Source of the DNA: Chloroflexota bacterium
GTDB lineage: Bacteria > Chloroflexota > Anaerolineae > B4-G1 > DUEL01
Direction: 5' to 3'
Assembly (NCBI GenBank): GCA_017743275.1
Contig: JAGHZG010000021.1
Span: forward strand, 1-11,185
Length of the DNA stretch: 11,185 bases
A program made the translations under genes and the position numbers. Shown here piece by piece: positions 1 through 11,185 of the stretch (position 1 is its first letter; every line of letters starts with the position of its first letter). The notes beneath the pieces are model-generated. The model saw nothing but the letters and a program-made list of their open reading frames with translations, had not been told where the DNA came from and made no database searches.

Positions 1-1
1 T

Positions 2-568
2 GTCGCCTACGCGCAGGTGGGCAAGTCTCTGGGCCTGCCCACCCACACCTACCTGGGCGCCAGCGCCGCCAAGGTGGTGGATGCTCAGGCAGGGCTGGAG
101 AGCGGCATTACCGCCGTCATCGGCGCGCTGGGCGGCATCAACATGATCTCCGGCGCCGGCATGCTGGACTTCCTGGCCTGCCAGAGTGCGGAAAAACTGG
201 TGGTGGACGCCGAGGCGGTCGGCATGGCCCTGCGGCTGGTGGAGGGCATCCAGGTCCACACCGACACCCTGGCGCTGGAGATGTTTGAGTCCATCGGTTT
301 CCGGGGCGACTTCCTGAAGCAGAAAATCACGCGCCAACTCTTCCCGAAGGAGCAGTATCTGCCCTCGGCGGTGCTGGAGCGGGGCTCCATCCGGGCCTGG
401 GAGGAGGGGGGCCGGCTGGACACCTTTGCCCGGGCGAAGGCCCGCGTGCGGGAACTGCTGGCCGCCTACCAGCGCCCGCCGATGGACCCCGACCAGGAGC
501 GGGAACTGCGGTCCATGGTGGAGCGGCTGGCCCGCCATGCCGGAATGGACTCCCTGCCGCCGCTGTAG
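2..568 (+). CDS. Trimethylamine methyltransferase (MttB) family protein, C-terminal part
   Basis: This is the C-terminal 188 residues of a methyltransferase whose start lies before the window; the frame is open from base 2. The sequence has the MttB-superfamily C-terminal style: TYLGASAAKVVDAQAG near the start, then a Gly/Ala/Met-rich barrel segment (GALGGINMISGAGMLDF), and a helical tail with FLKQKITRQLFPKEQYLP. Family members move a methyl group from a quaternary or tertiary amine (trimethylamine, glycine betaine, carnitine and similar) to a cognate corrinoid protein in the cytoplasm. The substrate cannot be told from this fragment, and no corrinoid protein or activase gene is visible nearby. 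No in-frame UAG occurs in the visible part before the terminal TAG, so nothing here points to a pyrrolysine enzyme, although the residue could lie upstream. The terminal TAG lies inside the palindromic repeat starting at 565. Family assignment is fairly secure; substrate is unknown. Confidence 0.85.
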   Translation, partial: VAYAQVGKSLGLPTHTYLGASAAKVVDAQAGLESGITAVIGALGGINMISGAGMLDFLACQSAEKLVVDAEAVGMALRLVEGIQVHTDTLALEMFESIGFRGDFLKQKITRQLFPKEQYLPSAVLERGSIRAWEEGGRLDTFARAKARVRELLAAYQRPPMDPDQERELRSMVERLARHAGMDSLPPL

Positions 569-612
569 CGCGGGCCGCCAGGCCCTGCATACAGGCGGAC
601 CACCTGCGCTAC
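565..612. repeat. GTAGCGC palindromic repeat, copy 1
   Basis: This 48-bp element begins GTAGCGCGGGC and ends CACCTGCGCTAC, so its ends are inverted (GTAGCGC/GCGCTAC). It has two internal inverted segments (GGGCCGCCAGGCCC and a CAGGCGG-type arm). It belongs to the same family as the copies at 2507, 8619 and 10217. It overlaps the end of the methyltransferase gene: the TAG stop codon is bases 2-4 of the element. Confidence 0.7.
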
Positions 613-632
613 CAGGCCGCTGTGGCGCCGGT

Positions 633-731
633 CCGGTTTGAGAGTAACGGTCGGCGAAGGCCGACCCCCGGCCGCAGGCCCAGGAAGGACGACTTCCGTC
701 GGCGCCGTTGGCACCGACAGCCCGGCCGGTA
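633..731. repeat. 99-bp two-hairpin repeat, copy 1
   Basis: This stretch aligns without gaps to 2602-2700, with about 15 differences by hand count. It contains two hairpins: GGTCGGC-GAAG-GCCGACC at 649-666 and GGAAG-GACGA-CTTCC at about 683-697. A 27-base core around the second hairpin (AGGAAGGACGACTTCCGTCG and the following GCGCCGT) is identical in both copies. It ends 13 bases before the ATG of the next gene, so it would lie in that gene's leader if it is transcribed. I do not recognise it as a known riboswitch. Confidence 0.75.
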
Positions 732-744
732 ACAGGGAGGCGTT

Positions 745-972
745 ATGAAACCCGAACTGGTTGTTATCGCCTTCCTCGTCGTCATTGTTGCGGCTCTGGC
801 CCTGCTTTCCCCGCCAGGCGCGGCTTTCCTGGAGCGGGTGATGGGCGAGAGCCTCAAGGCCCGGGCCGCGGAGTATGTGGATGCTCAGGGTTCTCCGGGA
901 CGTGTACCCTCTGGGAGAGGAACCACTCTTCTGGCGGAGAGTTTACCGGTGCGGGCCGGAGGGGGCCGGTGA
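745..972 (+). CDS. Small protein with N-terminal membrane anchor, unknown function
   Basis: This is a 75-codon ORF starting at ATG after a good Shine-Dalgarno (GGGAGG, 4 bases upstream). Residues 5-25 (LVVIAFLVVIVAALALLS) form one strongly hydrophobic segment, followed by an amphipathic stretch (FLERVMGESLKARAAEYV). After about residue 46 the frame becomes Gly/Arg/Ser-rich with poor GC at third positions. The +1 frame over the same bases (881-1009) looks more like real protein. The gene may therefore be an anchor peptide that overlaps a second gene, or a single gene of about 87 residues interrupted by a frameshift near 876-881. The annotated 3' end is uncertain for this reason. I do not recognise a family. 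It lies in the same orientation just upstream of the secreted glycoside-hydrolase-like gene and could be in its operon. Confidence 0.5.
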   Translation: MKPELVVIAFLVVIVAALALLSPPGAAFLERVMGESLKARAAEYVDAQGSPGRVPSGRGTTLLAESLPVRAGGGR

Positions 973-1009
973 GGCGCGCTGGCTGGACCTCCCCGATCCT
1001 TCACAATAA
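881..1009 (+). CDS. Overlapping 42-residue ORF, possibly the second half of the preceding gene
   Basis: This ORF lies in the +1 frame relative to the preceding ORF and starts at an ATG within it. It encodes 42 residues beginning MLRVLRDVYPLGEEPLFWRR and ending WLDLPDPSQ. Third-position GC is about 70% here, against about 50% in the competing frame over the same stretch, by hand count. The peptide composition (Leu, Arg, Glu, Trp, Tyr, Asp) looks like genuine protein. No Shine-Dalgarno precedes the ATG closely, so translation would depend on coupling to, or a frameshift from, the upstream anchor ORF. I do not recognise a family. It is either the true C-terminal part of the 745 gene or a small overlapping gene. 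Confidence 0.35.
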   Translation: MLRVLRDVYPLGEEPLFWRRVYRCGPEGAGEARWLDLPDPSQ

Positions 1010-1045
1010 GGCGCGCGGCAAAACAAAGTGCTGTTGGGGGAAACG

Positions 1046-2467
1046 GTGGTCTTCAAGGGATGGCTGACCAGTATTGTGCTGCTCTGCCTGGTGGCGGTCC
1101 TGACGCCTGTGCTCTTGCCCGTCTCGTTCGCAACGAGGCATGAAGCGCGGCGGAGCGCCGTCCCGGAAACCGGGGATGACTGGTACATCCGCAACGGGTT
1201 TGACCGCCAGCCTCCGCCGCCGGCCGAACCCTGGCCGCGCCCCCTGCCGCCATCGTCGCCCGCCACCGTTGCCCCGGCGGGCGATTTCTTCGTGTATCTC
1301 CCGATGGTGACCAGGGGGGCATCGCCGGAATTCCGGGCCCTGTGGGTCACCCGCTTTGACTGGACGCGCGCCGACGGCACCTGGGCGCAGCCGTCAGCCC
1401 TGGTGGCCATCGCGGAGCAGGCGGCCGCCGCCCACTTCAACGTCCTGCTCTTCCAGGTGCGCGGGGTGGGGGACGCTTTCTACACCCCAGGGAACGAGCC
1501 CTGGTCCTCCCGCCTGACGGGAACCGTCTCCAACACCCTCGGCACCGATCCCGGTTTTGACCCCCTGGCGGTGCTGATAGAGGCGGCCCACGCCCGCGGC
1601 CTCCAGGTCCACGCCTACCTGAACGTCTACCCGACCTGGCTCTGTAAGATTGGCGCCCCCCCGGATGGCACGGTACCTCTTCATCCGTTCTGGGCCTTTT
1701 CGCAGGGGAACGGCATCTCCTGGAGCGCATGGCGGGTGTACGATTCGGGCGGCAACCCGATGAACCTGATGACCTGCCTGTCGTACCTCTGGGCCACCCC
1801 GGCCTGGGAGGGGATGCGTTCCCACTTTCTCAACGTTGTCACCGACCTGGTGACCCGCTACGACCTGGACGGGGTCCATCTGGACCTGGTCCGCTATCCG
1901 GGCCGGAACTACTCCTACGACCCGTTCACGCCCTCGTTTCCGAACGACGGGTCCCGGGCCGACTGGCAGCGGGAGCAGGTCAACCGGCTGGTCCGGGAGA
2001 CGTATCAGATTGTGAAGGCCCACCGGCCCAATGCCTGGGTGACGGCGGCCGTGTGGGGAGTGTACCAGAACAAATGGGGATGGCCCTCCTTCAGCCAGGG
2101 GTACAGCGACTACTATCAGGACTCCAAGCGCTGGCTGCGCGAGGGCTGGGTAGACGCCATCATGCCGATGATCTATCCTGCCAATCCCTCGTCTAATTGT
2201 CCGGACAACACCGTCTGGATACTGGAACGGTTCCGCATGCTGGTGGCGGACTTCCTGGCCGACGCCGGAGGGCGGTATGTCTTCCCCGGCATTCACGGTG
2301 GCTACGCCTGTTTTGACGACACCATCAACCGCATCCAGGCCAGCCGGGAGTTGGGGGCAAGGGGACAGGCCATCTTTTCCCACGGTTCGGTCAACAGCAG
2401 GGGCTACTGGGACGAACTGGCCCTTCAGGCGTACCCATCTCCGGCCCCCGTACCCCCGTTGCCCTGA
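1046..2467 (+). CDS. Secreted glycoside hydrolase-like protein (GHL10/DUF187, COG1649 family)
   Basis: The protein has 473 residues from the GTG at 1046. I chose this start because GGGGG lies 5 bases upstream and the product then begins with a compact signal peptide (MVFKGWLTS, then a Leu/Val-rich core). The frame is also open from a GTG at 1028. After a Pro-rich spacer comes FFVYLPMVTRG, a linker style I associate with exported Chloroflexota proteins. The TIM-barrel-like domain then runs from EFRALWVTRFDW (about residue 95) to near the end. Its family hallmarks are FNVLLFQVRGVGDAFY (131-146), GLQVHAYLNVYPTW (185-198), YDLDGVHLDLVRYPG (272-286), WVTAAVWGVY (331-340) and DAIMPMIYP (370-378). 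Asp and Glu residues at the strand ends (as in HLDLVRYPG) are the likely catalytic or binding carboxylates. Members are predicted to act on extracellular or cell-wall polysaccharide; the substrate is not known from sequence. It starts 36 bases after the small ORFs and is probably co-transcribed with them. Confidence 0.85.
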   Translation: MVFKGWLTSIVLLCLVAVLTPVLLPVSFATRHEARRSAVPETGDDWYIRNGFDRQPPPPAEPWPRPLPPSSPATVAPAGDFFVYLPMVTRGASPEFRALWVTRFDWTRADGTWAQPSALVAIAEQAAAAHFNVLLFQVRGVGDAFYTPGNEPWSSRLTGTVSNTLGTDPGFDPLAVLIEAAHARGLQVHAYLNVYPTWLCKIGAPPDGTVPLHPFWAFSQGNGISWSAWRVYDSGGNPMNLMTCLSYLWATPAWEGMRSHFLNVVTDLVTRYDLDGVHLDLVRYPGRNYSYDPFTPSFPNDGSRADWQREQVNRLVRETYQIVKAHRPNAWVTAAVWGVYQNKWGWPSFSQGYSDYYQDSKRWLREGWVDAIMPMIYPANPSSNCPDNTVWILERFRMLVADFLADAGGRYVFPGIHGGYACFDDTINRIQASRELGARGQAIFSHGSVNSRGYWDELALQAYPSPAPVPPLP

Positions 2468-2479
2468 TGGGTCTGGCCA

Positions 2480-2503
2480 GTACAGGCTGACAGCCTGTGT
2501 TAC
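2480..2503. repeat. Short hairpin repeat related to the GTAGCGC family
   Basis: ACAGGCT-GAC-AGCCTGT forms a perfect 7-bp stem, flanked by GT and GTTAC. This matches the left half of the repeat copies at 8619 and 10217 (GCAGGCT...AGCCTG). It lies 12 bases after the stop of the glycoside-hydrolase-like gene, so it could act as a transcript 3'-end hairpin, although no T-run follows. Confidence 0.5.
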
Positions 2504-2506
2504 CGC

Positions 2507-2552
2507 GTAGCGCCGGCCGCCAGGCCGGTTCCCTCCTGATAGCCTGCGCTAC
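2507..2552. repeat. GTAGCGC palindromic repeat, copy 2
   Basis: This 46-bp element has perfect 7-bp inverted ends (GTAGCGC and GCGCTAC) and an internal CCGGCCGCCAGGCCGG arm. It is followed by related half-units: GTAGCGCCGGCCATTTGGCC from 2561 and CAGCGCCGGCC-GTCT-GGCCGG at about 2679-2698. The interval 2480-2700 is therefore a mosaic of repeat units with no gene in it. Confidence 0.7.
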
Positions 2553-2601
2553 GGGCCGCTGTAGCGCCGGCCATTTGGCCGGTGTGGCGCTGGCCGCCGG
2601 G

Positions 2602-2700
2602 CCGGTTTGAGAGCAGCGGTCGGCGAAGGCCGACCGGAGGCCTGCGGCCCAGGAAGGACGACTTCCGTCGGCGCCGTCAGCGCCGGCCGTCTGGCCGGTA
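2602..2700. repeat. 99-bp two-hairpin repeat, copy 2
   Basis: This is the gap-free counterpart of 633-731. The hairpin GGTCGGC-GAAG-GCCGACC is at 2618-2635 and GGAAG-GACGA-CTTCC at about 2652-2666. It ends 29 bases before the kamA start codon. Both copies sit in the same orientation relative to the downstream gene and follow a GTAGCGC-type repeat. Confidence 0.75.
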
Positions 2701-2729
2701 TCTGATTCAATATCAAGCGAGGAGGAAGC

Positions 2730-4016
2730 ATGCCCGCTCATCTGGAACTCACCGAACGCCGCACCCCGCCGCCCCCGTGGCAGGACGTGCCCTGGGAGCA
2801 GTGGGAGGACTGGCACTGGCAACTGGCTAACCGCATCACCACCGTGGAGGAACTGGCCCGCGTCATCCCGCTGACCGAGGAAGAGAAGGCGATGATTGAG
2901 GAATCGCTGGGGACGCTGCGGATGGCCATCACCCCCTACTACGCCAGCCTGATGGACCCCAACGACCCCCACGACCCCATCCGCCAGCGGGCTGTGCCCA
3001 CCCTCTACGAGAAAATTGTTCGCCCGGAGGACATGCGGGACCCCCTCCACGAGGACACCGACTCCCCCGCGCCCGGCCTCACCCACCGCTACCCGGACCG
3101 GGTGCTCCTGCTGGTCACCGACCAGTGTGCGATGTACTGCCGCCACTGCACCCGCCGTCGCTATGCCGGGGAGACCGACATGCCCCGCTCCCAGGCGGAG
3201 ATAGATGCCGCCATCGCCTACATCCGGGAGCACCGGGAGGTCCGGGACGTCCTCTTCAGCGGCGGCGACCCGTTCACCCTCTCCACCGAGCGCCTGGAGT
3301 ACATCGTGGCGAAACTTCACGAGATTCCCCACGTGGAGATTGTCCGCTACGGGACCGCCGCGCCGGTCACCTTTCCCCAGCGCATCACTGATGAACTGGT
3401 GAACATGCTGAAGAAGTACCAGCCGGTCTGGATCAACACCCACTTCAACCACCCCAGGGAGTTGACCCCGCGCGCCCGTCAGGCGTTGGCGAAACTGGCC
3501 GACGCGGGCTTTGTCCTGGGCAACCAGACCGTCCTCCTGCGCGGCGTCAACGACTGCCCGTACATCATCAAGGAACTCTGCCAGCGGCTGGTGGAGAACC
3601 GCGTTCGCCCATACCGCCTCTACCAGTGCGACCTCTCCCTGGGCATCGGCCATTTCCGGACGACCATCGCGCGGGGGATTGAGATCATAGAGCACCTCTC
3701 CGGCCACACCACCGGCTTCGCCGTGCCGGAGTTTATGGTGGACCTGCCCGGTGGCGGCGGGAAGACGCCGGTGAACCCCCGCTATCTCATCGCATGGAAC
3801 GGCCGGGTGGCGATTTTCCGCAACTACGAGGGGGTCATTGCCCGCTACACGGAGCCGGACGACTACCGGTTTGAGTGCCCGCCCCACTGCCGCATCTGCG
3901 AGGAGCGGCGGGCGCGCGGGCTGGACGAGCCGAAAGTCGGGCCGGCGCGCCTCTTTGCCGGGGAGGCCATTGCCCTGGAGCCTGCCGACCTCCCTCGCCG
4001 GGCCCGCCGCCGGTAA
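2730..4016 (+). CDS. kamA: L-lysine 2,3-aminomutase
   Basis: This is a 428-residue radical-SAM, PLP-dependent enzyme that converts L-lysine to L-beta-lysine in the cytoplasm, the first step of lysine fermentation or of N-epsilon-acetyl-beta-lysine osmolyte synthesis. The start is secure: GAGGAGG lies 6-7 bases upstream of the ATG. The 4Fe-4S/SAM motif CAMYCRHC gives C133, C137 and C140. SGGDP at 177-181 is the SAM-binding Gly-rich strand. K345 in PGGGGKTP is the expected PLP Schiff-base lysine. D301 (QCDLSLG) and D338 (MVDLPGG) match the two aspartates that hold the substrate lysine side-chain amine, which argues for lysine rather than glutamate 2,3-aminomutase. C276 with C383, C387 and C390 resembles the family's structural zinc site. 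Length is normal. No acetyltransferase (ablB) or other lysine-fermentation gene is adjacent, so the pathway role is open. A 99-bp repeat precedes it and a hairpin follows it. Confidence 0.95.
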   Translation: MPAHLELTERRTPPPPWQDVPWEQWEDWHWQLANRITTVEELARVIPLTEEEKAMIEESLGTLRMAITPYYASLMDPNDPHDPIRQRAVPTLYEKIVRPEDMRDPLHEDTDSPAPGLTHRYPDRVLLLVTDQCAMYCRHCTRRRYAGETDMPRSQAEIDAAIAYIREHREVRDVLFSGGDPFTLSTERLEYIVAKLHEIPHVEIVRYGTAAPVTFPQRITDELVNMLKKYQPVWINTHFNHPRELTPRARQALAKLADAGFVLGNQTVLLRGVNDCPYIIKELCQRLVENRVRPYRLYQCDLSLGIGHFRTTIARGIEIIEHLSGHTTGFAVPEFMVDLPGGGGKTPVNPRYLIAWNGRVAIFRNYEGVIARYTEPDDYRFECPPHCRICEERRARGLDEPKVGPARLFAGEAIALEPADLPRRARRR

Positions 4017-4018
4017 CC

Positions 4019-4052
4019 GATGTAGGCCAACTGCTTGCCGTTGGCCTGCATC
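4019..4052 (+). terminator. Hairpin downstream of kamA
   Basis: GATGTAGGCCAAC and GTTGGCCTGCATC form a 13-bp stem with one G-T wobble and an 8-base loop, starting 3 bases after the kamA stop. No T-run follows, so this is either an atypical terminator or a 3'-end-stabilising hairpin. Confidence 0.5.
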
Positions 4053-4095
4053 CTCTGGGCTTCCAACGATTTTGGGAGCCGCCTGCCTGTTAGAT

Positions 4096-4124
4096 TTGGC
4101 TTCCCGTTGACTTTACATTATAAT
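4096..4124 (+). promoter_or_regulatory. Predicted sigma-70-type promoter (TTGGCT-17-TATAAT)
   Basis: TTGGCT at 4096-4101 and a consensus TATAAT at 4119-4124 are separated by 17 bases. The predicted start of transcription is near 4131, just upstream of the decayed toxin-antitoxin remnant. It would drive that remnant and the nucleotidyltransferase gene behind it. It has the same architecture as the promoters at 4971 and 8723. Confidence 0.65.
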
Positions 4125-4146
4125 AGTCTATAGCCAGAAACAGGCG

Positions 4147-4209
4147 GTTGCCGCTGGAGAGCGCGGCGAGCCGTTGGATGAGGTTGTGCGAAAACTGAGT
4201 CTGGAGTAG
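4147..4209 (+). pseudogene. Possible antitoxin C-terminal remnant
   Basis: This open frame has no usable start codon and ends ERGEPLDEVVRKLSLE-stop. That ending resembles the C-terminal tail of RelB/Phd-type antitoxins. The stop is 4 bases before the GTG that opens a RelE/ParE-like toxin fragment, the compact spacing usual in such operons. The N-terminal part is missing: the predicted transcription start (about 4131) lies almost at the remnant. The evidence is context and a short tail only. Confidence 0.3.
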
Positions 4210-4213
4210 CGCT

Positions 4214-4294
4214 GTGTATTCCGTCCGTATCCTGGACGCCGCCATTCGTGACCTGGAGCGCCTGGACAGGCCGGTTGGCCGTCGTATTGTTGCC
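4214..4294 (+). pseudogene. RelE/ParE-family toxin, N-terminal remnant
   Basis: From a GTG, about 27 residues read YSVRILDAAIRDLERLDRPVGRRIVA. This is the characteristic first strand and helices of RelE/ParE ribosome-dependent or gyrase toxins (Y.V.I...A..DL..LD..V.RRI). The rest of the toxin fold is absent. The frame continues without a stop into about 36 residues of Arg/Pro-rich sequence and then into the nucleotidyltransferase gene. This looks like a deletion that joined the toxin's start to sequence upstream of the nucleotidyltransferase. A functional toxin is unlikely because the catalytic half is missing. Confidence 0.55.
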
Positions 4295-4402
4295 GACCGT
4301 CGTCCTTCGCCGACCCAGCGGCGGCGATGGGTGCTGGAAATGGCCCGCCGCCGGGCCCGGCCCGGCACAGGCAGCCTGCCGGAACGATTGCGGAGCGGAC
4401 CG

Positions 4403-4915
4403 ATGACCCAATGGCCAGACCTTCGTCCGGTGCTGGAAGGAATCCCCTGGGCCGTGGTGGGGGCCGTGGCGACCCGTCTCTACATGCCAGAACGGGCCAC
4501 CCGTGACCTGGACATCCTGATCCGGCGGGAGGACGAGCAGACGGTGCGGAATCGCCTGGAGACGGCGGGCTACCGCTATGGCGTTTCTCTGGCAGTTCCC
4601 GGATTTACCGTTTGCTCCCCCGATGGGGTCGCGATAGATGTTCTGCTGGGAGATGCCCCGTGGGTGGAGGAAGCACTGGCAGCCCCGCGTGTGGACCCGA
4701 CGGGTCTGCCCGTGCTGGACCTCCCCTACCTGGTGCTGATGAAACTGGAGGCCTCCCGCCTTCAGGACATAGCCGACCTGGCCCGGATGCTGGGCCTGGC
4801 CTCAGAGTCGGAACGAGAACGGGTCCGGGCTGCCGTTGCCCGGTACGTCCCCGACGCGCTGGAGGATCTGGAGTCCTTGATCTACCTGGGAATGCTGGAA
4901 ATGGGAACGGAATGA
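4403..4915 (+). CDS. MNT-type nucleotidyltransferase domain protein
   Basis: The protein has 170 residues from the ATG at 4403, chosen for GGAG 7 bases upstream. The same frame is open back to the GTG at 4214, which would give a 233-residue fusion. It carries the minimal nucleotidyltransferase signature WAVVGAVATRLYMPERATRDLDIL, with D35 and D37 as the DxD metal ligands and D79 (VAIDVLLG) as the third carboxylate. The C-terminal half has LPYLVLMKLEASRLQDIADLARML, typical of AbiEii-like and related stand-alone nucleotidyltransferases. All three acidic residues are present, so activity is plausible. Related proteins often act as toxins or antitoxins that transfer nucleotides to a partner (HEPN proteins, tRNA), but no partner gene is intact here. 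The segment RRRWVLEMARRRARPGTGSL just before the ATG may belong to the native protein, in which case the true start was lost. Biological role is unknown. Confidence 0.75.
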   Translation: MTQWPDLRPVLEGIPWAVVGAVATRLYMPERATRDLDILIRREDEQTVRNRLETAGYRYGVSLAVPGFTVCSPDGVAIDVLLGDAPWVEEALAAPRVDPTGLPVLDLPYLVLMKLEASRLQDIADLARMLGLASESERERVRAAVARYVPDALEDLESLIYLGMLEMGTE

Positions 4916-4936
4916 TGGCCACTCCATTCTACAACC

Positions 4937-4962
4937 GAACGGAAACGAACGCTTTCAGAACG
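4937..4962 (+). promoter_or_regulatory. Three phased GAACG repeats, candidate operator
   Basis: GAACG occurs at 4937, 4947 and 4958, spaced 10 and 11 bases, so all three face the same side of the helix. The block ends 8 bases before the -35 hexamer of the DeoR-family gene. Read on the other strand it is a series of CGTTC units inside TTTTCGTTC- and GTTCGTTTC-like sequence, similar in style to the TTCG-rich repeated operators of DeoR-family regulators. Autoregulation is inferred, not shown. Confidence 0.4.
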
Positions 4963-4970
4963 AAAACCGC

Positions 4971-4999
4971 TTGGCAAAAATTCCCTTCTGTTGTATAAT
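4971..4999 (+). promoter_or_regulatory. Predicted promoter TTGGCA-17-TATAAT, leaderless start
   Basis: TTGGCA at 4971-4976 and TATAAT at 4994-4999 have optimal 17-base spacing. Only 8 bases separate the TATAAT from the ATG at 5008, so transcription should start at or within a base or two of the start codon. No Shine-Dalgarno precedes the ATG. Confidence 0.8.
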
Positions 5000-5007
5000 C
5001 AAACTGC

Positions 5008-5757
5008 ATGGGAACACCGACCCCGCAGAGAAGGGCGGAGATCGCTCGCCTGCTGGCCCGGAGCGGCGCGGTCCGGGTGGCCGACCTGGCGGCCCGTTTC
5101 GGGACCTCTGAGCCCGCGATCCGTCGGGACCTGGAGTGGCTGGAGGCCCAGGGGCTGGCCCGGCGGATTCGCGGCGGCGCTGTCGCCACGCATCCCCCGA
5201 CGGATTCCCCACCGTCCCCCGATGCGGTCCCGGTGCGAATCGGGAGGGCCGCTGCGGGCCTGGTGCGGGCGGGGGAGACCGTCTTCATCGGCCCCGGCCT
5301 CATGACGCTGGAGGTCGCTCGCGCCCTCTCAGAGCATCCCCCGCTGACCATCATCACCAACGGCCTCTCTATCGCCCGCCAGATTGCCGACCATACCTCT
5401 CATACCCTTATCCTGACCGGGGGGCAACTGGAGCGTGCGGAGGGAGAACTGACCGGTCACCTGCCCCGGTCCGCGCTGGAGACCCTGCGCGCCGATCGGG
5501 TGGTCCTGGAACTGGGGGGAGTGGATGCCGCCGAGGGTCTGACGGACGACCGCCTTTCTCAGGCGGAACTGGCGCGGATGCTCTTTCAGCGGGGGCTACA
5601 GGTAGTGGTACTGGTGCCGCCCGATAGGGTGGGGCGGGTGGCGGCGGCCTACATCGGGCCGGTCACCGATGCCGATGTCATCGTCACCGCCCGCGAGGCC
5701 GACTCGGCCCCCCTCTGGGACCTGGCCGAAACCGGTGTACGGGTTCTTCTGGCCTGA
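5008..5757 (+). CDS. DeoR/GlpR-family transcriptional regulator
   Basis: This 249-residue protein has normal family length. Residues 6-57 form the DeoR winged helix-turn-helix ([20 protein letters not shown], then [20 protein letters not shown] and ARRIRGGA). The C-terminal effector domain has TIITNGL (114-120), LTGGQLE (136-142) and [11 protein letters not shown] (169-179). The usual sugar-phosphate-binding D.GTT loop is replaced by GPGLMT at 95-100, and the Lys-containing segment just before it is shortened. The effector may therefore differ from a classic sugar phosphate. It most likely represses or activates the ABC transporter ATPase gene 35 bases downstream and itself, through the GAACG repeats upstream. 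The start follows from the promoter geometry (leaderless). A downstream start cannot be excluded but would cut into the helix-turn-helix. Confidence 0.85.
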
Positions 5758-5792
5758 TTCTGCAATCTGTAAAATCTGCACAAGGAGGAACA

Positions 5793-6893
5793 ATGGCAAG
5801 CGTCACATACGACCATGTCACCAAAAGGTTCGGGGACGTGATCGCCGTCAACGACCTGACCATCCACATTGAGGACGGGGAGTTCCTGGTCTTCGTCGGC
5901 CCGTCGGGCTGTGGCAAGACGACCGCACTGCGGCTCCTGGCGGGGCTGGAGGAACTCACGTCCGGCAATATCTACATCGGGGACCGGCTGGTGAACGACG
6001 TCCCGCCCAAAGACCGGGATATCGCGATGGTCTTCCAGTCCTACGCGCTTTATCCCCATATGACTGTCTACGAGAACATGGCCTTTGGGCTGAAACTGCG
6101 CAAAGTCCCCAAGAAGGAAATTGACCGGCGGGTGCGGGAGGCGGCGCGCATCCTGGGGATTGAGAATCTCCTGGACCGCAAACCGAAACAACTTTCCGGC
6201 GGTCAGCGGCAGCGGGTGGCGGTGGGACGGGCCATCGTCCGGGAGCCGGCCGTCTTCCTGATGGATGAGCCCCTCTCCAACCTGGATGCCAAACTGCGGG
6301 TGCAGGCCCGCGCCGAACTTTCCAAACTCCACCAGCGCCTGGGCACGACCTTCATCTACGTGACCCACGACCAGGTGGAGGCGATGACCATGGGCACCCG
6401 GATCGCCGTGCTCAACGCGGGGGTTCTCCAGCAGGTAGATACACCCCAGAACCTCTACGACTACCCGGCCAACATCTTTGTGGCCGGATTTATTGGCAGC
6501 CCGGCAATGAACTTTTTTAACGCGAAATTGGTGAGCATAGACGGAGTGGTCACCATAGATACCGGAGATTTTATCGTGCCCATTCCAATGGCCAAACAAG
6601 AGATCTATCGGCCGTATCTGGGTAAGGAGATTGTCTTCGGTATCCGGCCCGAGGATGTCCACGACCCCGATTTTGTCCCGCCGGGCATCTCGGCGGCGGC
6701 GGTGGAGGCGCGGGTGGCGGTGACCGAGTTGATGGGGAACGAGGTCATCGCCTATCTGGATACGGAACACTACGAATTCCTGGGTCGCTTTGATCCCCGG
6801 ACGAAGGCCCGGGTGGGCATCACGATGCGGGTGGTCCTGAATATGGACCGGATGCATATTTTTGACCGTCAGACGGAGTTGGCCCTTCGGTAG
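5793..6893 (+). CDS. MalK/UgpC-type sugar ABC transporter ATP-binding protein
   Basis: This 366-residue cytoplasmic ATPase energises a carbohydrate or glycerol-phosphate importer of the CUT1 type. AAGGAGG precedes the ATG by 6 bases. Walker A is GPSGCGKT (36-43), the Q-loop is Q82 in [15 protein letters not shown], the signature is LSGGQ (134-138), Walker B is VFLMDE (154-159), the D-loop is SNLD, and the switch histidine is H192 (THDQVEAM). After about residue 235 comes the MalK-type regulatory OB/TOBE region, with GIRPEDV at 283-289 and a C-terminal FDRQTE segment (357-362). All catalytic elements are present. No permease or solute-binding protein gene is in the window, so it may be a shared ATPase serving transporters encoded elsewhere. 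It is co-oriented with the DeoR regulator and ends at a strong terminator. Confidence 0.93.
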
Positions 6894-6929
6894 TGGTCTC
6901 TTTCTGACACGCGGCCCATACGTCCTGCT

Positions 6930-6974
6930 AACGCGATGGGGGCGGGTGGTGTTGTCACCCGCCCCCATCGCGTT
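6930..6974 (+). terminator. Strong hairpin terminator after the ABC ATPase gene
   Basis: AACGCGATGGGGGCGGGTG and CACCCGCCCCCATCGCGTT form a perfect 19-bp stem with a 7-base loop (GTGTTGT), beginning 37 bases after the stop codon. Only a short T-run (the final TTT of GCGTTT) follows. Because the stem is symmetric it could also work on the other strand, where it would protect against read-through toward the ABC operon. Confidence 0.8.
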
Positions 6975-7370
6975 TCAGGGCTCCCGGCGCGGTCGGTTTC
7001 GTGTAGTCATCACAGCAACTCCCTGGCGGCATTGCTTGTGTTGATTGTTTTGATGGAGCGTAACCACCTGCCTGTCGGTCGTCATGGCGAGGCGGCCTTA
7101 GCCGCCGAAGCAATCCTCTCACAGGTGTCACAGAAGTCTCAGTTCGTATGGAAGTTGAGATTGCTTCGCCGCCTTCAGCGGCTCGCAACGATATGGGGGA
7201 GGGTGGTTGCGATGTAGCACCGGATTTATCCTGCCGGATTTATCCTGCGGTAACTTTTTATGCGCTGGCTGACGTCATCCTTCCCGGGCCCGCGACCATT
7301 TCGTGTAGTCATTAAAGGAAACAAGATGACTGGTTGCCCTTCGTTCAGTTTCTTTGAGATAAACTTCAGG
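6975..7370. other. Non-coding interval between convergent genes
   Basis: No convincing gene is visible. The interval holds the palindrome at 7080-7192, a 14-base direct repeat (TTTCGTGTAGTCAT at 6997-7010 and 7299-7312) that brackets it, and a tandem 14-base duplication (CCGGATTTATCCTG at 7220-7247). The longer open frame that enters it from the right is antisense to the isomerase gene. Confidence 0.6.
7080..7192. repeat. MITE-like palindrome with GAAGCAATC arms
   Basis: The left arm CGTCATGGCGAGGCGGCC and onward to GCCGAAGCAATC is answered by an inverted right arm running from GAGATTGCTTCGCCGCC to CGGCTCGCAACGAT. Each arm has its own hairpin: GGCGGC-CTTA-GCCGCC on the left and GCCGC-CTTCA-GCGGC on the right. 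The style (cgtca-tgcgag-gaagcaatctc) matches short dispersed palindromes that I recall from several bacterial phyla, including Chloroflexota. No transposase is nearby. Confidence 0.65.
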
Positions 7371-8444
7371 CTATACGAAATTCCCCATCTTTGCCAACCG
7401 TTTCTTCAGGTAGTCAATCGGTGGCACCGGGGTGGGGTCGGCCCCGTTCAACATCGCCAGATAAAGGCTCACATAATCCCCGAAGTGGATGAGCGAGAGC
7501 ATCTGGGCCAGTCGGCTGTTTCCCCTTGCCCGGATTTCATCGGGCGCTATTCCCTCCTGAAGCAGCAGTTCCCGGGTTACCTGCCAGCGGGCCTTCACCC
7601 GGGGGTGGTCCAGAGACGAGCAAAGCATCACCACATATACCTGGTCCCGTACTCCCGCAGGGATTCCGTATCCCACCACTGCGTTGTGGTTCAGTTCCGG
7701 CATCTCCTCCCAAACAGCCCACTGTTTGGCATTCTCATTGAACTGGCTCTTCCATCGTCGGGCCACCGGGGCCAGAAATCCCGCGCCGTACACTACCGGC
7801 AACCGTCCGATCAGTTGCCCCGCCAGACGCTTCGCTGGATTCCGGACCGTCGGGGTTTCCGGCCGCAACTCCTGCTGCCAGGCCTCTACCACTGCAATCG
7901 CTTCGTCCAGGTCATCCCCGGGATCCCGGATCAGACCGGCGCGCCAGAGAATGCCCAGCAGCAGTATCAGCGAATAGCCAATCGCAGCCCGGGGGGCCAG
8001 GCAGGGAGAGAAGCGAAGCAGGGGAATCCCTCTCTCCTCAGCCATCGCAGCCAGATCACCGCCTGTGGCCACCACCACCAGCCGACAACCCCGCTCCAGG
8101 GCCTGCTCAAAAGTGGAAAGGGTCTCCTCAGTCTTGCCGGAGTAACTGGAACCCACGACCAGAGTCTCCGGCCCCGCATAGGCGGGCAGGTCGTACCCAC
8201 CAACGGAGAGGATGGGCACAGGACTCTCATCGGCGACCAGCGCGGCCGCCAGCGCGCCGCCAATGGCCGACCCACCCATCCCCAGCACCACCAGGTTCTG
8301 CACCTGTCGGTACGATTCCGGCAGAGAGAACTCCTGCACCAGACACCAGGCATCAGCGCAGTGGACCGGCAGTTCGGCAATCCGGTCCCGCATCCGCTGA
8401 GGATCCTGCTCTTCGTAGAGTTTCGGATCGTCCAGGTTGACCAT
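7371..8444 (-). CDS. Bifunctional phosphoglucose/phosphomannose isomerase
   Basis: This 357-residue cytoplasmic enzyme of the SIS-fold PGI/PMI family interconverts fructose 6-phosphate with glucose 6-phosphate and mannose 6-phosphate. The chosen ATG (8444) has AGGAGAG 5 bases upstream; the frame is open further upstream, but that part covers the promoter. The first SIS domain has GMGGSAIGG (55-63) and the sugar-phosphate loop SSYSGKTEET (99-108). The second half has NENAKQ (236-241) and PELNHNAVVG (249-258), where E250 and H253 match the acid/base residues of the family. The C-terminus YLKKRLAKMGNFV is typical. In relatives the loop reads SGNTxET, so the Asn to Lys change at residue 103 is unusual. 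It is monocistronic here, transcribed away from the lipoprotein gene and convergent with the ABC operon. It would feed mannose or glucose units into glycolysis. Confidence 0.92.
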   Translation of the reverse strand: MVNLDDPKLYEEQDPQRMRDRIAELPVHCADAWCLVQEFSLPESYRQVQNLVVLGMGGSAIGGALAAALVADESPVPILSVGGYDLPAYAGPETLVVGSSYSGKTEETLSTFEQALERGCRLVVVATGGDLAAMAEERGIPLLRFSPCLAPRAAIGYSLILLLGILWRAGLIRDPGDDLDEAIAVVEAWQQELRPETPTVRNPAKRLAGQLIGRLPVVYGAGFLAPVARRWKSQFNENAKQWAVWEEMPELNHNAVVGYGIPAGVRDQVYVVMLCSSLDHPRVKARWQVTRELLLQEGIAPDEIRARGNSRLAQMLSLIHFGDYVSLYLAMLNGADPTPVPPIDYLKKRLAKMGNFV

Positions 8445-8514
8445 GCTTCTCTCCTGAAACACGTGATAGATACGCGAAAGACAAGAAAAGCACAAAGGTC
8501 TCCATTCGGGCCAG

Positions 8515-8542
8515 AGTATAGCCGGAAAGGGCAATTTGTCAA
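8515..8542 (-). promoter_or_regulatory. Predicted promoter of the isomerase gene (TTGACA-16-TATACT)
   Basis: On the minus strand a consensus TTGACA (8542-8537) and TATACT (8520-8515) are separated by 16 bases. Transcription would start near 8508, leaving a leader of about 63 bases with a normal Shine-Dalgarno. The upstream extension of the open frame overlaps this promoter, which supports the ATG at 8444 as the true start. Confidence 0.75.
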
Positions 8543-8618
8543 CTCAGAACCGGGTTGTCCCGCAATTTTGCACCCCCCGTAATTGCCTGCCCGAATCGGT
8601 TTGTCGGTTTGCAGGTAA

Positions 8619-8665
8619 GTAGTGCAGGCTGTCAGCCTGTATGCAGGCCTGGCGGCCTGCGCTGC
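8619..8665. repeat. GTAGCGC palindromic repeat, copy 3
   Basis: This 47-bp element begins GTAGTGCAGGCTGTCAGCCT and ends CTGGCGGCCTGCGCTGC. It aligns without gaps to the copy at 10217-10263. It contains two hairpins (GCAGGCT-GTC-AGCCTG and GCAGGCC-TGGC-GGCCTGC). It sits between two divergent promoters. Confidence 0.75.
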
Positions 8666-8722
8666 AAGGGCATATCTTTGCCGCGTCCAGGTAGTTGCTC
8701 CCATGCTTTCGCCCCTTTTCCA

Positions 8723-8751
8723 TTGGCACTCTGCCGTTTCCGTGTTATAAT
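8723..8751 (+). promoter_or_regulatory. Predicted promoter TTGGCA-17-TATAAT, near-leaderless
   Basis: TTGGCA at 8723-8728 and TATAAT at 8746-8751 are 17 bases apart, identical in both boxes to the DeoR-gene promoter. The ATG at 8762 is 10 bases beyond the TATAAT, so the 5' leader would be about 3-5 bases. No Shine-Dalgarno is present between promoter and ATG. Confidence 0.8.
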
Positions 8752-8761
8752 CTCCATCGCT

Positions 8762-10057
8762 ATGAGCGGCCAACATGTTCACCCACTTACCCGTTTTCTG
8801 CTCCCGGCCCTCGGGGCCCTGATACTGGCGCTTCTGCTGGCGGGGTGCGGCGAACAGCCCCTGCTCTCCGACGTCTCCTTCTCCAAAGACCGCATCACCC
8901 CCAACGCCGACGGCCAGGACGACGTGCTGGTCATCCGCTACCGGCTGGCTCGCGCGGCGAACCTGTCCATCTACTTCCTGGACGAGGCGGGAAACCGCTA
9001 CGTCTTCCGGGACCGTCAGCCCCGCGCCCCCACCGGCGAGCGGGAGCCGTACTCCGTCTACTTCTCCGGCATCGTGGACGGCTATACGCTTCCCGGCGAG
9101 AACTTTGAGGGGTTCACCGTCACCCACCGGGTGCTGCAGGACGGCGTCTACACCTGGGTGGTGGAGGCCACCGAGGCGAATGGTCACACCGAGCGGGTCA
9201 CCGGCACTCTCACCATCGCCGATGCCGACACGACGTTGCCGGAACTGCGCAACTTCACCGTCTCGCCCCCCGTCTTCACCCCCAACCGGGACGGCATCAG
9301 CGACCGGGCACGGTTCAACGTCTTCGTGACCAAGCCCTACGTGTCGCTGGTCGTGTACCTGCTGCGGGCGGACGGGACCGACGACGTCCGGTATCACGTG
9401 GCGGAGGACGAGCGGAGCCCGGCCCGCCCCGGCGAGCGGGGTTTGCACACCTTTGACTACTACGCCGGGGTGGACCTGGGCGCCGAACCCCCACCCGACG
9501 GGACTTACACCGTCTGGGCGGAGGTGCAGGACGCGATGGGGCAGCGGGTGGTCGCCACGTCCACCCTGACCATCAAGAACGGCGGGGTGCCCCGGGCCTA
9601 CATCCTCAACGGCGAGGTGGAGTGGTCGGCCCAGAGCGTCGCGCTGAGGGAGACCCTCTGGTTCACGCTGACGGTGGAGAACGACAGCGCCACCCCCATC
9701 CGCACCAGCGGCCCGCCCCCCGGTACCGTCTATGATAGCGACCAGAACTACGCCACCCTGGGAGAGACCATCCAATCCGGTGTCTTCCGGGTGGGCATCC
9801 ACTGCGAGAACGCGCTGATCAACTACCCCTGGCGCTGGGCGGTGGGAGATGAGAGCGTGCTGGTAAGGGACGAGGAGGGCTATATCTACCTTCCCCCCTT
9901 CACCCGCGCAGTGGTGACCGGCGGCATCCGCTTCGTGAGCGTGGAGGGGAAGCGCAACCCCCAGTACTGCTGGGCCGGCCTCATCCACGAGGACGTGGAA
10001 ATCTCTTCAGTGAACGACCGGGTGGACCCGGTGTTCCTGTTCATCCAGGTGCCGTGA
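8762..10057 (+). CDS. Lipoprotein with FlgD-like Ig modules, unknown function
   Basis: The protein has 431 residues from the ATG at 8762. The frame is open 69 codons further upstream, but that part covers a repeat and the promoter. A lipoprotein signal peptide is clear: FLLPALGALILALLLAGC, with lipobox LLAGC and lipidated C29. Two related beta-rich modules follow. Each begins with an Asp-rich PN.DG motif (TPNADGQDD at 46-54, TPNRDGISD at 173-181) and ends with a DG.Y(T) strand (DGVYTWVVEA at 127-136, DGTYTVWAEV at 246-255), the pattern of FlgD/gliding-motility-type Ig-like domains, probably calcium-binding. The last 150 residues (from about 283) are a third beta-rich region with two cysteines, C348 and C403, that could form a disulfide. 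The protein should be anchored outside the membrane; a structural or adhesive role is likely but not shown. It appears monocistronic. Confidence 0.8.
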   Translation: MSGQHVHPLTRFLLPALGALILALLLAGCGEQPLLSDVSFSKDRITPNADGQDDVLVIRYRLARAANLSIYFLDEAGNRYVFRDRQPRAPTGEREPYSVYFSGIVDGYTLPGENFEGFTVTHRVLQDGVYTWVVEATEANGHTERVTGTLTIADADTTLPELRNFTVSPPVFTPNRDGISDRARFNVFVTKPYVSLVVYLLRADGTDDVRYHVAEDERSPARPGERGLHTFDYYAGVDLGAEPPPDGTYTVWAEVQDAMGQRVVATSTLTIKNGGVPRAYILNGEVEWSAQSVALRETLWFTLTVENDSATPIRTSGPPPGTVYDSDQNYATLGETIQSGVFRVGIHCENALINYPWRWAVGDESVLVRDEEGYIYLPPFTRAVVTGGIRFVSVEGKRNPQYCWAGLIHEDVEISSVNDRVDPVFLFIQVP

Positions 10058-10072
10058 ACTATTTGAAACCAC

Positions 10073-10207
10073 CAGGAGTTACGCAGTTGAGTTGTTTCCG
10101 AACGTGCCAGGCACTTCTGGAAGTGCCTGGCACGTTCTCCCCGCTGGGAGGAAGAACAGTTGCCGGGCAAAACTCCAAGAGTGATCCTCCCAACTGCGTA
10201 AGTCCTG
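10073..10207. mobile_element. 135-bp MITE with 17-bp inverted ends and 5-bp target duplication
   Basis: The left end CAGGAGTTACGCAGTTG (10073-10089) and right end CAACTGCGTAAGTCCTG (10191-10207) are inverted repeats with one mismatch. Both are flanked by ACCAC (10068-10072 and 10208-10212), a perfect 5-base direct repeat as expected for a target-site duplication. The interior holds a perfect 18-base inverted repeat (arms at 10100-10117 and 10120-10137, GTGCCAGGCACTTC style). There is no coding capacity, so it would need a transposase in trans from an element with the same ends. It inserted 15 bases after the lipoprotein stop codon. Confidence 0.8.
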
Positions 10208-10344: not shown

Positions 10345-11185
10345 ATGCGCTTACTTTGCACGCTCGGAGTCCACGAGTGGAAAAGGGTTTACATTGGCCC
10401 GAAATCCTGCGAGGCTCGGGAAAAATGTGTGCACTGTGGAGCACCTGGAAAGACTGTAGGGCCTGTGCACAAATGGGAATGGATTGAGCGAACTCCCTGC
10501 ATCAGAGAGCAGGTTTGTGCGCGTTGTGGTGCGACAGGCCAGGTTGAAGAAAGGGAACATACATGGGAGTGGGTTGAGCGAAGTCCTTGTGTAAGGGAGC
10601 AGATTTGTAGGCGTTGTGGTACAGTTGGTAAGACGGAGAAGAAAGAACATCAATGGAAAAGGGATTATCATCTGAAGGTTGAGACTATAGAGGGTTGGCC
10701 TCTAGGTCCTGCAGCCAGAAGCATTCGCCTGCATCTTCCCTCATTCACCGTTATTGGTACATCTTCCCGGCCCTCAAGGGTTAATGAATCTTTGCGCAGC
10801 CTGATGTTTGTGTTCAATTTTGAGCCCTACGAAGAAACAGAACTCGCTATTATCATACTTTCGGCGGCCCAACGACAAGGAATAGAGATTGTGCCAGAAG
10901 CTGCTATCCTGTTGGCCAGGTATAGCGATGGGAATCCCTCTCAGGGACTGAACTTGCTCAAAAAAGCGCATATGTATGCTATCGTTCGTGCAGACGGGCG
11001 TATTACCCCTGATGTTGTGGAAAATGCATCCACCCTGTTTGAGTTAGACGATGCACCTCGCGCCGCGGCGAGACAACGCATACCGGATGATGTGAAGAGA
11101 TTTGTCTGGCAACGCGACGGAGGGCGTTGTGTGAAGTGCGGGAGCCGCGAGAATTTAGAATTTGATCACATCATCCCAATTTCTA
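10345..11185 (+). CDS. Chimeric protein: CCCH zinc repeats, RuvB-derived lid, HNH endonuclease (3' end cut)
   Basis: The visible 280 residues run open to the window edge. The ATG is 6 bases after GGGGG. Residues 1-14 (MRLLCTLGVHEWKR) resemble the start of small zinc-binding phage proteins. Residues 22-104 are three units C-x5-C-x2-C-G-x10-H-x-W with an exact 30-residue period (C22/C28/C31/H42, C52/C58/C61/H72, C82/C88/C91/H102). Residues 107-236 match the middle of RuvB: DYHLKVETIE, then GPAARSIRLHLPSFTVIGTS, EPYEETELAIIILSAAQRQG and GNPSQGLNLLKKA, corresponding to the strand after Walker B, sensor 1 and the AAA+ lid. There is no Walker A or B. From about 243, IPDDVKRFVWQRDGGRCVKC plus NLEFDHIIPIS is the start of an HNH nuclease (C262, C265, D274, H275). 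It is probably a DNA-binding nuclease, perhaps phage- or defence-related. Codons are visibly more A/T-ending than in the rest of the window. Confidence 0.8.
   Translation, partial: MRLLCTLGVHEWKRVYIGPKSCEAREKCVHCGAPGKTVGPVHKWEWIERTPCIREQVCARCGATGQVEEREHTWEWVERSPCVREQICRRCGTVGKTEKKEHQWKRDYHLKVETIEGWPLGPAARSIRLHLPSFTVIGTSSRPSRVNESLRSLMFVFNFEPYEETELAIIILSAAQRQGIEIVPEAAILLARYSDGNPSQGLNLLKKAHMYAIVRADGRITPDVVENASTLFELDDAPRAAARQRIPDDVKRFVWQRDGGRCVKCGSRENLEFDHIIPIS

Follow-up and report, generated by a model that had tools for sequence, protein, structure and literature searches.

The window analysed here, a stretch of 11,185 nucleotides that constitutes one entire contig (C428) of a Chloroflexota assembly (2.26 Mb, 442 contigs, 76.5% complete), ends in a gene whose product carries zinc-type repeats, a part of the Holliday junction ATPase RuvB and the beginning of an HNH nuclease. 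How did such an order of domains come about, and what use might a nuclease have for a part of RuvB? A preliminary description had proposed a chimera in which a RuvB lid, possibly used as a docking surface, is combined with zinc modules in front and a nuclease behind.

Anatomy of the window gene

The open reading frame (10345..11184, forward strand; 280 aa) runs through all of its segments without a stop and is still open at the contig end. Its first part contains three tandem repeats of the form C-x5-C-x2-C-x10-H, at residues 22-42 (10408..10470), 52-72 (10498..10560) and 82-102 (10588..10650), which confirms the CCCH repeats originally reported; three such repeats never arose when the N-terminal 107 residues were shuffled 5000 times, and no Pfam model matched them above its cut-off in the proteins scanned. 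Residues 121-236 (116 residues) match RuvB in profile searches (NCBIfam PRK00080, E=1.2e-16; TIGR00635, E=2.5e-15) and in the PDB (RuvB chains to E=3.8e-14, with a one-residue gap), as had been proposed for the middle region, and the score of the protein, 60.6 bits, lies far under the RuvB equivalog cut-off of 282 bits. This region comprises a remnant of the RuvB large domain (10705..10827), with the second strand of the presensor-1 hairpin and the sensor-1 strand, modelled with low to middling confidence in the close relative P0001, followed by a RuvB-type lid (residues 162-235; 10828..11049). Pfam recognizes the lid as AAA_lid_4 above cut-off and the tail of RuvB_N, at residues 121-152, under cut-off. 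The correspondence with RuvB is nearly gap-free to the end of the lid, as first noted, but its first residues are GPAARS, half-way through the presensor-1 hairpin. The HNH module, from IPDDVK onward (11080..11184), is located where the RuvB winged helix should begin; Pfam and the alignment agree with the domain order of the preliminary description on this point. The contig end truncates the module, and only the first half of the HNH motif lies within the window; taken alone, this half, from about residue 246, yields a Pfam match with E=0.21, and the full motif is present in P0001.

The gene has a GC content of 50% against 64% for window bases 1-10057 and was therefore probably acquired from outside. 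Upstream of the gene lies a dispersed repeat identified by repeat search and not assigned to a strand, a 135-bp palindrome (10073..10207) with an inner perfect inverted repeat of 18 bp. A copy with 98% identity is present on contig C431, along with weaker near-full copies, and the 38-bp core recurs at many sites of the genome, as in a MITE- or REP-like family. An Rfam scan found nothing.

Intact relatives and an in-frame deletion

P0001 (306 aa), encoded on another contig, is 99% identical to the window protein across the entire open reading frame and has the whole HNH domain, thereby completing the part cut off by the contig end. In P0002 (439 aa) and P0003 (469 aa), the zinc repeats are followed by a complete RuvB P-loop domain, the lid and the HNH module. 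Relative to P0002, the window protein is without exactly 133 residues between L120 and G121 (10704..10705), in frame, and outside this gap the two proteins differ at five residues. The deleted stretch contains Walker B and the P-loop as well as one of the two strands of the hairpin that binds RuvA; the ATPase core with Walker A and Walker B is accordingly absent from the window protein. P0004 (274 aa), which begins within the ATPase domain and retains Walker A and Walker B, is identical to the window protein at all 160 residues past the junction. The junction is the same in P0001, in which residues 31 and 111 are unlike those of the window protein, and it therefore stands on two contigs. Judging from its anatomy and from the alignment with P0002, the window gene is almost certainly an in-frame deletion derivative of a fuller RuvB-HNH form. 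The idea that zinc modules replaced the front half of the ATPase was abandoned, since P0002 and P0003 have the zinc repeats before a whole RuvB ATPase. The window allele would be in decay or else encode a nuclease that has nothing but the zinc repeats and the lid to guide it.

Size, composition and distribution of the RuvB-HNH family

Sequence comparison places the window gene in a family of RuvB paralogues, here called RuvB-HNH, in which a predicted HNH nuclease replaces the DNA-gripping winged helix; no RuvB_C model was matched in the family proteins scanned with Pfam, the HNH module standing in its place. The same HNH module is attached to RuvB-like sequence in at least 130 proteins. This number is a lower bound, the second protein search having scored 8000 candidates, and consists of 122 proteins defined by Pfam domains among the matches listed (P0001-P0029 and P0121-P0214, without P0137, which has no HNH) and 8 further members recognized by the HNH pattern among RuvB relatives found with the AAA part of P0172. 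The N-terminal companions are diverse and include, in the proteins scanned with Pfam, a double zinc ribbon (P0164), Sel1 (P0180), GYF_2 (P0205) and Mrr_N (P0200), and at least one C-x4-6-C-x2-C motif, a loose pattern, precedes the HNH in 27 of the 122. The RuvB P-loop is absent in 10 of the 122, namely nine proteins without letters at that place and P0200, which represents a second form lacking the ATPase front half, with Mrr_N directly before the part that follows Walker B. Where databases name the members, the names are RuvB, HNH endonuclease or similar, and the source name 'Holliday junction DNA helicase RuvB', borne by several, should be taken as a warning for annotation.

Several members have peculiarities of their own. 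P0200 (330 aa, on a contig of 1.5 Mb) consists of Mrr_N, the post-Walker B half of RuvB, the lid and the HNH, and in its linker ERQAIPDDVGxF is repeated twice ahead of the true HNH start. P0168 has, ahead of RuvB and HNH, a tryptophan-rich domain that by eye resembles the one of stand-alone HNH proteins, and P0210 retains the RuvB winged-helix model with the HNH behind it; both are possible intermediates of fusion.

Few of the Chloroflexota genomes searched contain a member. Within one order, 1 of 400 genomes contained a member (E<=1e-52), and the taxonomic family of this genome yielded 1 of 152, the same genome again. In the taxonomic family of the window itself (13 genomes), the matches off the window contig were all of RuvB length, and in 400 genomes of the phylum all matches listed off the window contig end near the end of the RuvB part. 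A strict search of 396 genomes of the class returned no members at a threshold that also missed the window's own genome, and none of the RuvB-type open reading frames at loci L005-L123 has the HNH pattern. Ordinary RuvB dominated the matches listed in a scan of genome contigs. A scan of the viral collection with the hairpin-to-lid part confirmed no member, and the best 20 places each in phages and plasmids extend over the RuvB part without including the HNH.

Origins of the fusions

Phylogenetic analysis (FastTree) of 255 rows, 119 of them with HNH, resolved a clade A of 73 rows (support 99) and a clade B, in which 42 HNH rows are joined by the frameshifted P0217. Clade B is nested in the RuvB group matched by P0172, whose AAA part shares 70-79% identity with listed winged-helix RuvB; three of these bear the names Verrucomicrobia, Verrucomicrobiota or Limisphaerales. 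Clade C consists of P0027 and P0182, beside P0039 and P0048, and P0168 and P0210 are separate. Twelve of 267 rows, with less than 85% of columns filled, were left out of the tree, all of them HNH rows and P0001 among them; P0200 was retained although its front letters there are those of Mrr_N. Decay on the nuclease side was seen in clade B, where the HNH of P0217 is apparently frameshifted and P0185 has lost a CxxC.

With P0217 scored as lacking HNH in both, the 255-row tree needs at the fewest 6 state changes and an 85-row tree 5; a 55-row tree needs 4. In AU tests, in which the groups were named after viewing a tree and the p-values share the faults of the model, a single origin was rejected for all fusions (p=1.6e-5), for A and B (p=5e-4), for B and C (p=4e-9) and for A and C (p=0.010), as were the pairings of P0168 with C (p=0.011) and with P0210 (p=0.037), whereas a joint origin with P0210 was tolerated for B (p=0.185) and for C (p=0.47). 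It was also tolerated for A and P0168, which already form one side of a branch (support 53). Because the pairings of A with P0168, B with P0210 and C with P0210 were not rejected, we claim no more than three origins; that number is supported, and more are possible.

Between clades A and B, the mean identity is 70% for the HNH modules and 36% for the AAA parts, which indicates that one HNH module was joined to different RuvB parents. On the parent of clade A the trees conflict: in the FastTree analysis of 255 rows, four RuvB from Patescibacteria, Peregrinibacteria or Parcubacteria records adjoin the clade (support 99), whereas an IQ-TREE mixture model on 85 rows puts it among RuvB of Chloroflexota and Anaerolineae (support 94 and 89). 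By identity, the nearest RuvB belongs to the Chloroflexota set for 40 of the 73 clade A members and to others for 33.

Residues lost and residues kept

Sixty sites are invariant in RuvB (at >=98% in 135 RuvB rows; P0039 numbering). Twenty of these are kept (>=90%) in both A and B, including G60, G63, G65 and K66 of the P-loop and G140, A143 and R144 of the hairpin, and seven are lost (<20%) in both: A158, P168, R172 (the finger), R213, R215, R219 (sensor 2) and D255. The trans arginine finger is kept in 0/73 rows of clade A, 4/42 of clade B and 4/4 of the other four; the corresponding numbers are 0/73, 2/42 and 0/4 for the sensor-2 arginine, 23/72, 36/42 and 4/4 for the Walker B glutamate, and 71/73, 40/42 and 4/4 for the P-loop (Walker A) lysine, against 135, 135, 136 and 136, respectively, of 136 RuvB rows that include the frameshifted family member P0217. 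Over the 119 family rows of the tree, the P-loop lysine is present in 115, the finger in 8 and the sensor-2 arginine in 2, and the HNH motif (zinc cysteines and DH...N...N) is complete in 115 of 118 family rows, the exceptions being P0013, P0150 and P0185. In the alignment, clades A and B, which are the largest, have lost predicted motor residues in parallel. The window protein itself has LRSLM-F at the finger site (T. thermophilus R158), compared with LRDRFGI in RuvB P0034, and GNPSQ, compared with GTPRI, at the sensor-2 site (T. thermophilus R205), the arginine being absent from both. The roles of the finger, sensor-2 and hairpin residues are those given in passages of PMC10272136 and PMC9477746, with numbering matched by motif and not by superposition. 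The pattern suggests that ATP binding, the docking surface and the nuclease are under selection and the full hydrolysis cycle is not.

Structure models and the RuvA-binding surface

The AlphaFold2 model of the intact P0002 (pLDDT 88, pTM 0.67) has a confident AAA+ core in which the hairpin strands are formed at residues 246-251 and 258-263. In the model of the window-type P0001 (pLDDT 80, pTM 0.38), the lid is confident and is the best-modelled part, and the zinc repeats and the HNH are fairly confident; residues 103-121 and 123-127 have pLDDT <50, the means of the ten-residue blocks of 121-160 range from 49 to 74, and the hairpin strands are absent. According to passages of PMC9477746, domain III of RuvA contacts the large domain of RuvB through the presensor-1 hairpin and through helix alpha3, and passages of PMC10272136 likewise give the hairpin as a RuvA-binding element. 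The lid is thus a doubtful docking surface; for the intact members, the earlier suggestion of a nuclease directed at RuvAB or Holliday junctions may still hold. The core of the hairpin sequence is conserved in clades A and B, and docking on RuvA is predicted from this conservation, which could serve the fold alone. Half of the hairpin is deleted in the window type: the first strand is missing and so, by the extent of the deleted stretch (from before the P-loop to inside the hairpin), would be helix alpha3.

The HNH module without RuvB

Among the matches listed as P0030-P0120, 42 HNH proteins are without RuvB. In 29 of the 42, a loose pattern detects an unnamed tryptophan-rich domain with the core WWMF...FYWEDEGY, and at E<=0.001 Pfam finds nothing but HNH models and NinG in any of the 42. 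The viral collection contains 57 loci with a relative of the HNH, and no RuvB domain was present in the ten proteins scanned from these loci. A contig of this collection (L133:5308-6195) encodes a fusion of this HNH module with an FtsK gamma domain (E=6e-25). The gamma domain of FtsK recognizes sites that orient the chromosome, and this protein joins a second piece of a DNA motor to the nuclease module of RuvB-HNH.

Gene neighbourhoods

Besides the window one locus was found, in genome G979 (L126), of the ruvB-DUF2905-queA type, with the RuvB-HNH gene at positions 3579-4511. The gene order is ruvB, a small ORF with TumE, DUF2905, RuvB-HNH, DUF2971, MNT, HEPN and queA; in genome G337, the RuvB of which is 97% identical, DUF2905 and queA adjoin with nothing between them. 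TumE, MNT and DUF2971 match the PADLOC candidate models PDC-M44B, PDC-S09 and PDC-S31, and HEPN matches no PADLOC model. The distance between ruvB and queA could be measured in 19 of 23 genomes and exceeds 1.1 kb in 10, of which four, judged from Pfam, are of defence type: G979 and the loci with a KAP NTPase (G224), an EcoO109I-type restriction-modification system (G248) and an AAA_16/NPHP3_N protein (G112). The remaining six hold other genes (beta-CASP, M55 peptidase, SpoU methylase, Y1 transposase, etc.), and the cargo of such loci is therefore mixed, which speaks against reading much into the setting in G979. In the window, the eight neighbours scanned match metabolic, transport or regulatory models or none, with nothing defence-like, and no model of PADLOC-DB 2.0.0 covers the fusion in the window protein, P0002, P0005, P0172, P0180 or P0200, in which the P-loop or HNH gave weak partial matches. 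The gene context is weak evidence for an accessory and perhaps defensive role. In G979, the last 17 codons of ruvB recur behind the TumE pair (L126:2498-3274), and a duplicate of the start of queA forms the beginning of the MNT gene (L126:5551-6603), so that the cassettes look as if each had restored the edge of the gene it entered.

Possible function and alternative explanations

We give about an even chance to an explanation in which RuvB-HNH proteins are nucleases on an ATP-binding, non-motor RuvB scaffold with an accessory or defensive task and the window allele is a form without the scaffold. Intact members would bind ATP without translocating. As most of them are without the trans finger and sensor 2 but have the P-loop and the hairpin core, they would probably assemble or dock without branch migration, either on RuvA at Holliday junctions and reversed forks or on one another, and the HNH domain would cut the DNA held at the docking site, most likely as an accessory or defence nuclease. 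Given the Walker B glutamate in 23/72 rows of A and 36/42 of B and the finger in the other four, hydrolysis is possible in some members.

The same data can be read as decay, in which a promiscuous HNH captures duplicated host genes and the RuvB part is a passenger, its motor already broken in clade A and the window representing a further step of loss. Such a course would suit the occurrence of the module without RuvB (the 42 proteins and viral proteins, one of the latter with FtsK gamma), the degenerate Walker B in most of clade A, the damaged HNH of P0217 and P0185 and the 10 of 122 members lacking the RuvB P-loop. However, the loss is selective, for the P-loop lysine (115 of 119) and the hairpin core are kept and the same finger and sensor-2 sites are gone in both clades, and the 42 RuvB-less proteins have no other Pfam enzyme domain, making RuvB look like the favoured partner, albeit with a query that itself contained RuvB; we regard passenger decay as rather unlikely. 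Conversely, some members could hydrolyse ATP and unite RuvB and a resolvase in one chain, as might be expected from P0027, P0168, P0182 and P0210, which keep the finger, the Walker B glutamate and the P-loop lysine, and from the retention of this glutamate in clade B. Yet the sensor-2 arginine is missing from all four and from all but two rows of B, the finger is nearly lost in B and wholly in A, and the window allele, without a P-loop, could not be such an enzyme, which renders an active motor-nuclease improbable.

The remaining two alternatives concern the window allele. There is a slim chance that the assembly joined two parts of one intact gene, given the position at a contig end, relatives of the intact form with 98-99% identity, and a P0001 contig of only 1421 bases that may share source material with the window; against this, P0001 has the identical junction and yet differs at two other residues, the reading frame is preserved across the join, and the ends of the missing stretch appear, at the protein level, to share no misleading repeat. 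The chimera of zinc modules, nuclease and lid first suggested is consistent with the domain order of the allele, with the lid being its best-modelled part and with P0200, in which a different N-terminal domain lies straight before the post-Walker B half. It nonetheless seems very improbable, because intact relatives point to a deletion and not to an assembly of parts and because, in the passages of PMC9477746 and PMC10272136 cited above, RuvA binds outside the lid.

The preferred reading, that of nucleases on a non-motor RuvB scaffold, can be extended, tentatively and at less than even chances, to a convergent class of junction-targeted nucleases: ATP-gated pseudo-motors that would dock through the RuvA-binding hairpin and cut invading or damaged DNA at its Holliday junctions or reversed forks, their timing set by N-terminal sensors (zinc repeats, Mrr_N, Sel1, GYF), with some alleles having shed the motor. 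RuvB is among the most conserved bacterial repair motors; if copies of it were separately turned into nuclease scaffolds, losing the same two hydrolysis residues twice, they would constitute a natural experiment that distinguishes surfaces for docking from those for motion. Should docking prove true, the nuclease would exploit a hijacked RuvB interface to target recombination intermediates.

Comparison with known systems

No description of a RuvB-HNH fusion was found among the listed titles and abstract openings of open-licence papers searched with RuvB and HNH terms, and the sole paper combining RuvB, HNH, fusion and AAA terms is a review of jumbo phages (PMC7824862). The convergent family is thus apparently undescribed. 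The preliminary description was correct in that no literature account of this domain order was found, but a family with the fuller order is already present in databases.

RuvB itself, the ATPase of Holliday junction branch migration (PF05496, PF17864, PF05491), is the closest known system: the intact members scanned match its P-loop and lid models, and the AAA parts are on average 40% identical to RuvB in clade A (maximum 60%) and 51% in clade B (maximum 75%). RuvB-HNH proteins resemble it in the retained P-loop and hairpin core and differ in carrying an HNH instead of the winged helix, or following it in the case of P0210, and in mostly missing the finger and sensor-2 arginines, the window protein being also without Walker A and Walker B. 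Stand-alone HNH proteins (PF01844/PF14279, PIPDDVKxFVWQRDGG type) have the same module, with a mean identity of 78% between clade A and the 42 stand-alone proteins, but where RuvB-HNH has RuvB in front, 29 of the 42 show the tryptophan-rich pattern instead. The edge of the HNH also weakly matches 8fm1 and 9dif (E=0.07) and PADLOC effectors (E about 0.003). Cap5 is an effector of the SAVED-HNH type, and RuvB-HNH proteins are akin to it and to other HNH defence effectors in the fusion of a nuclease to a controlling domain; they are distinguished by lacking, according to Pfam, the SAVED domain, and their would-be controlling domain is derived from RuvB.
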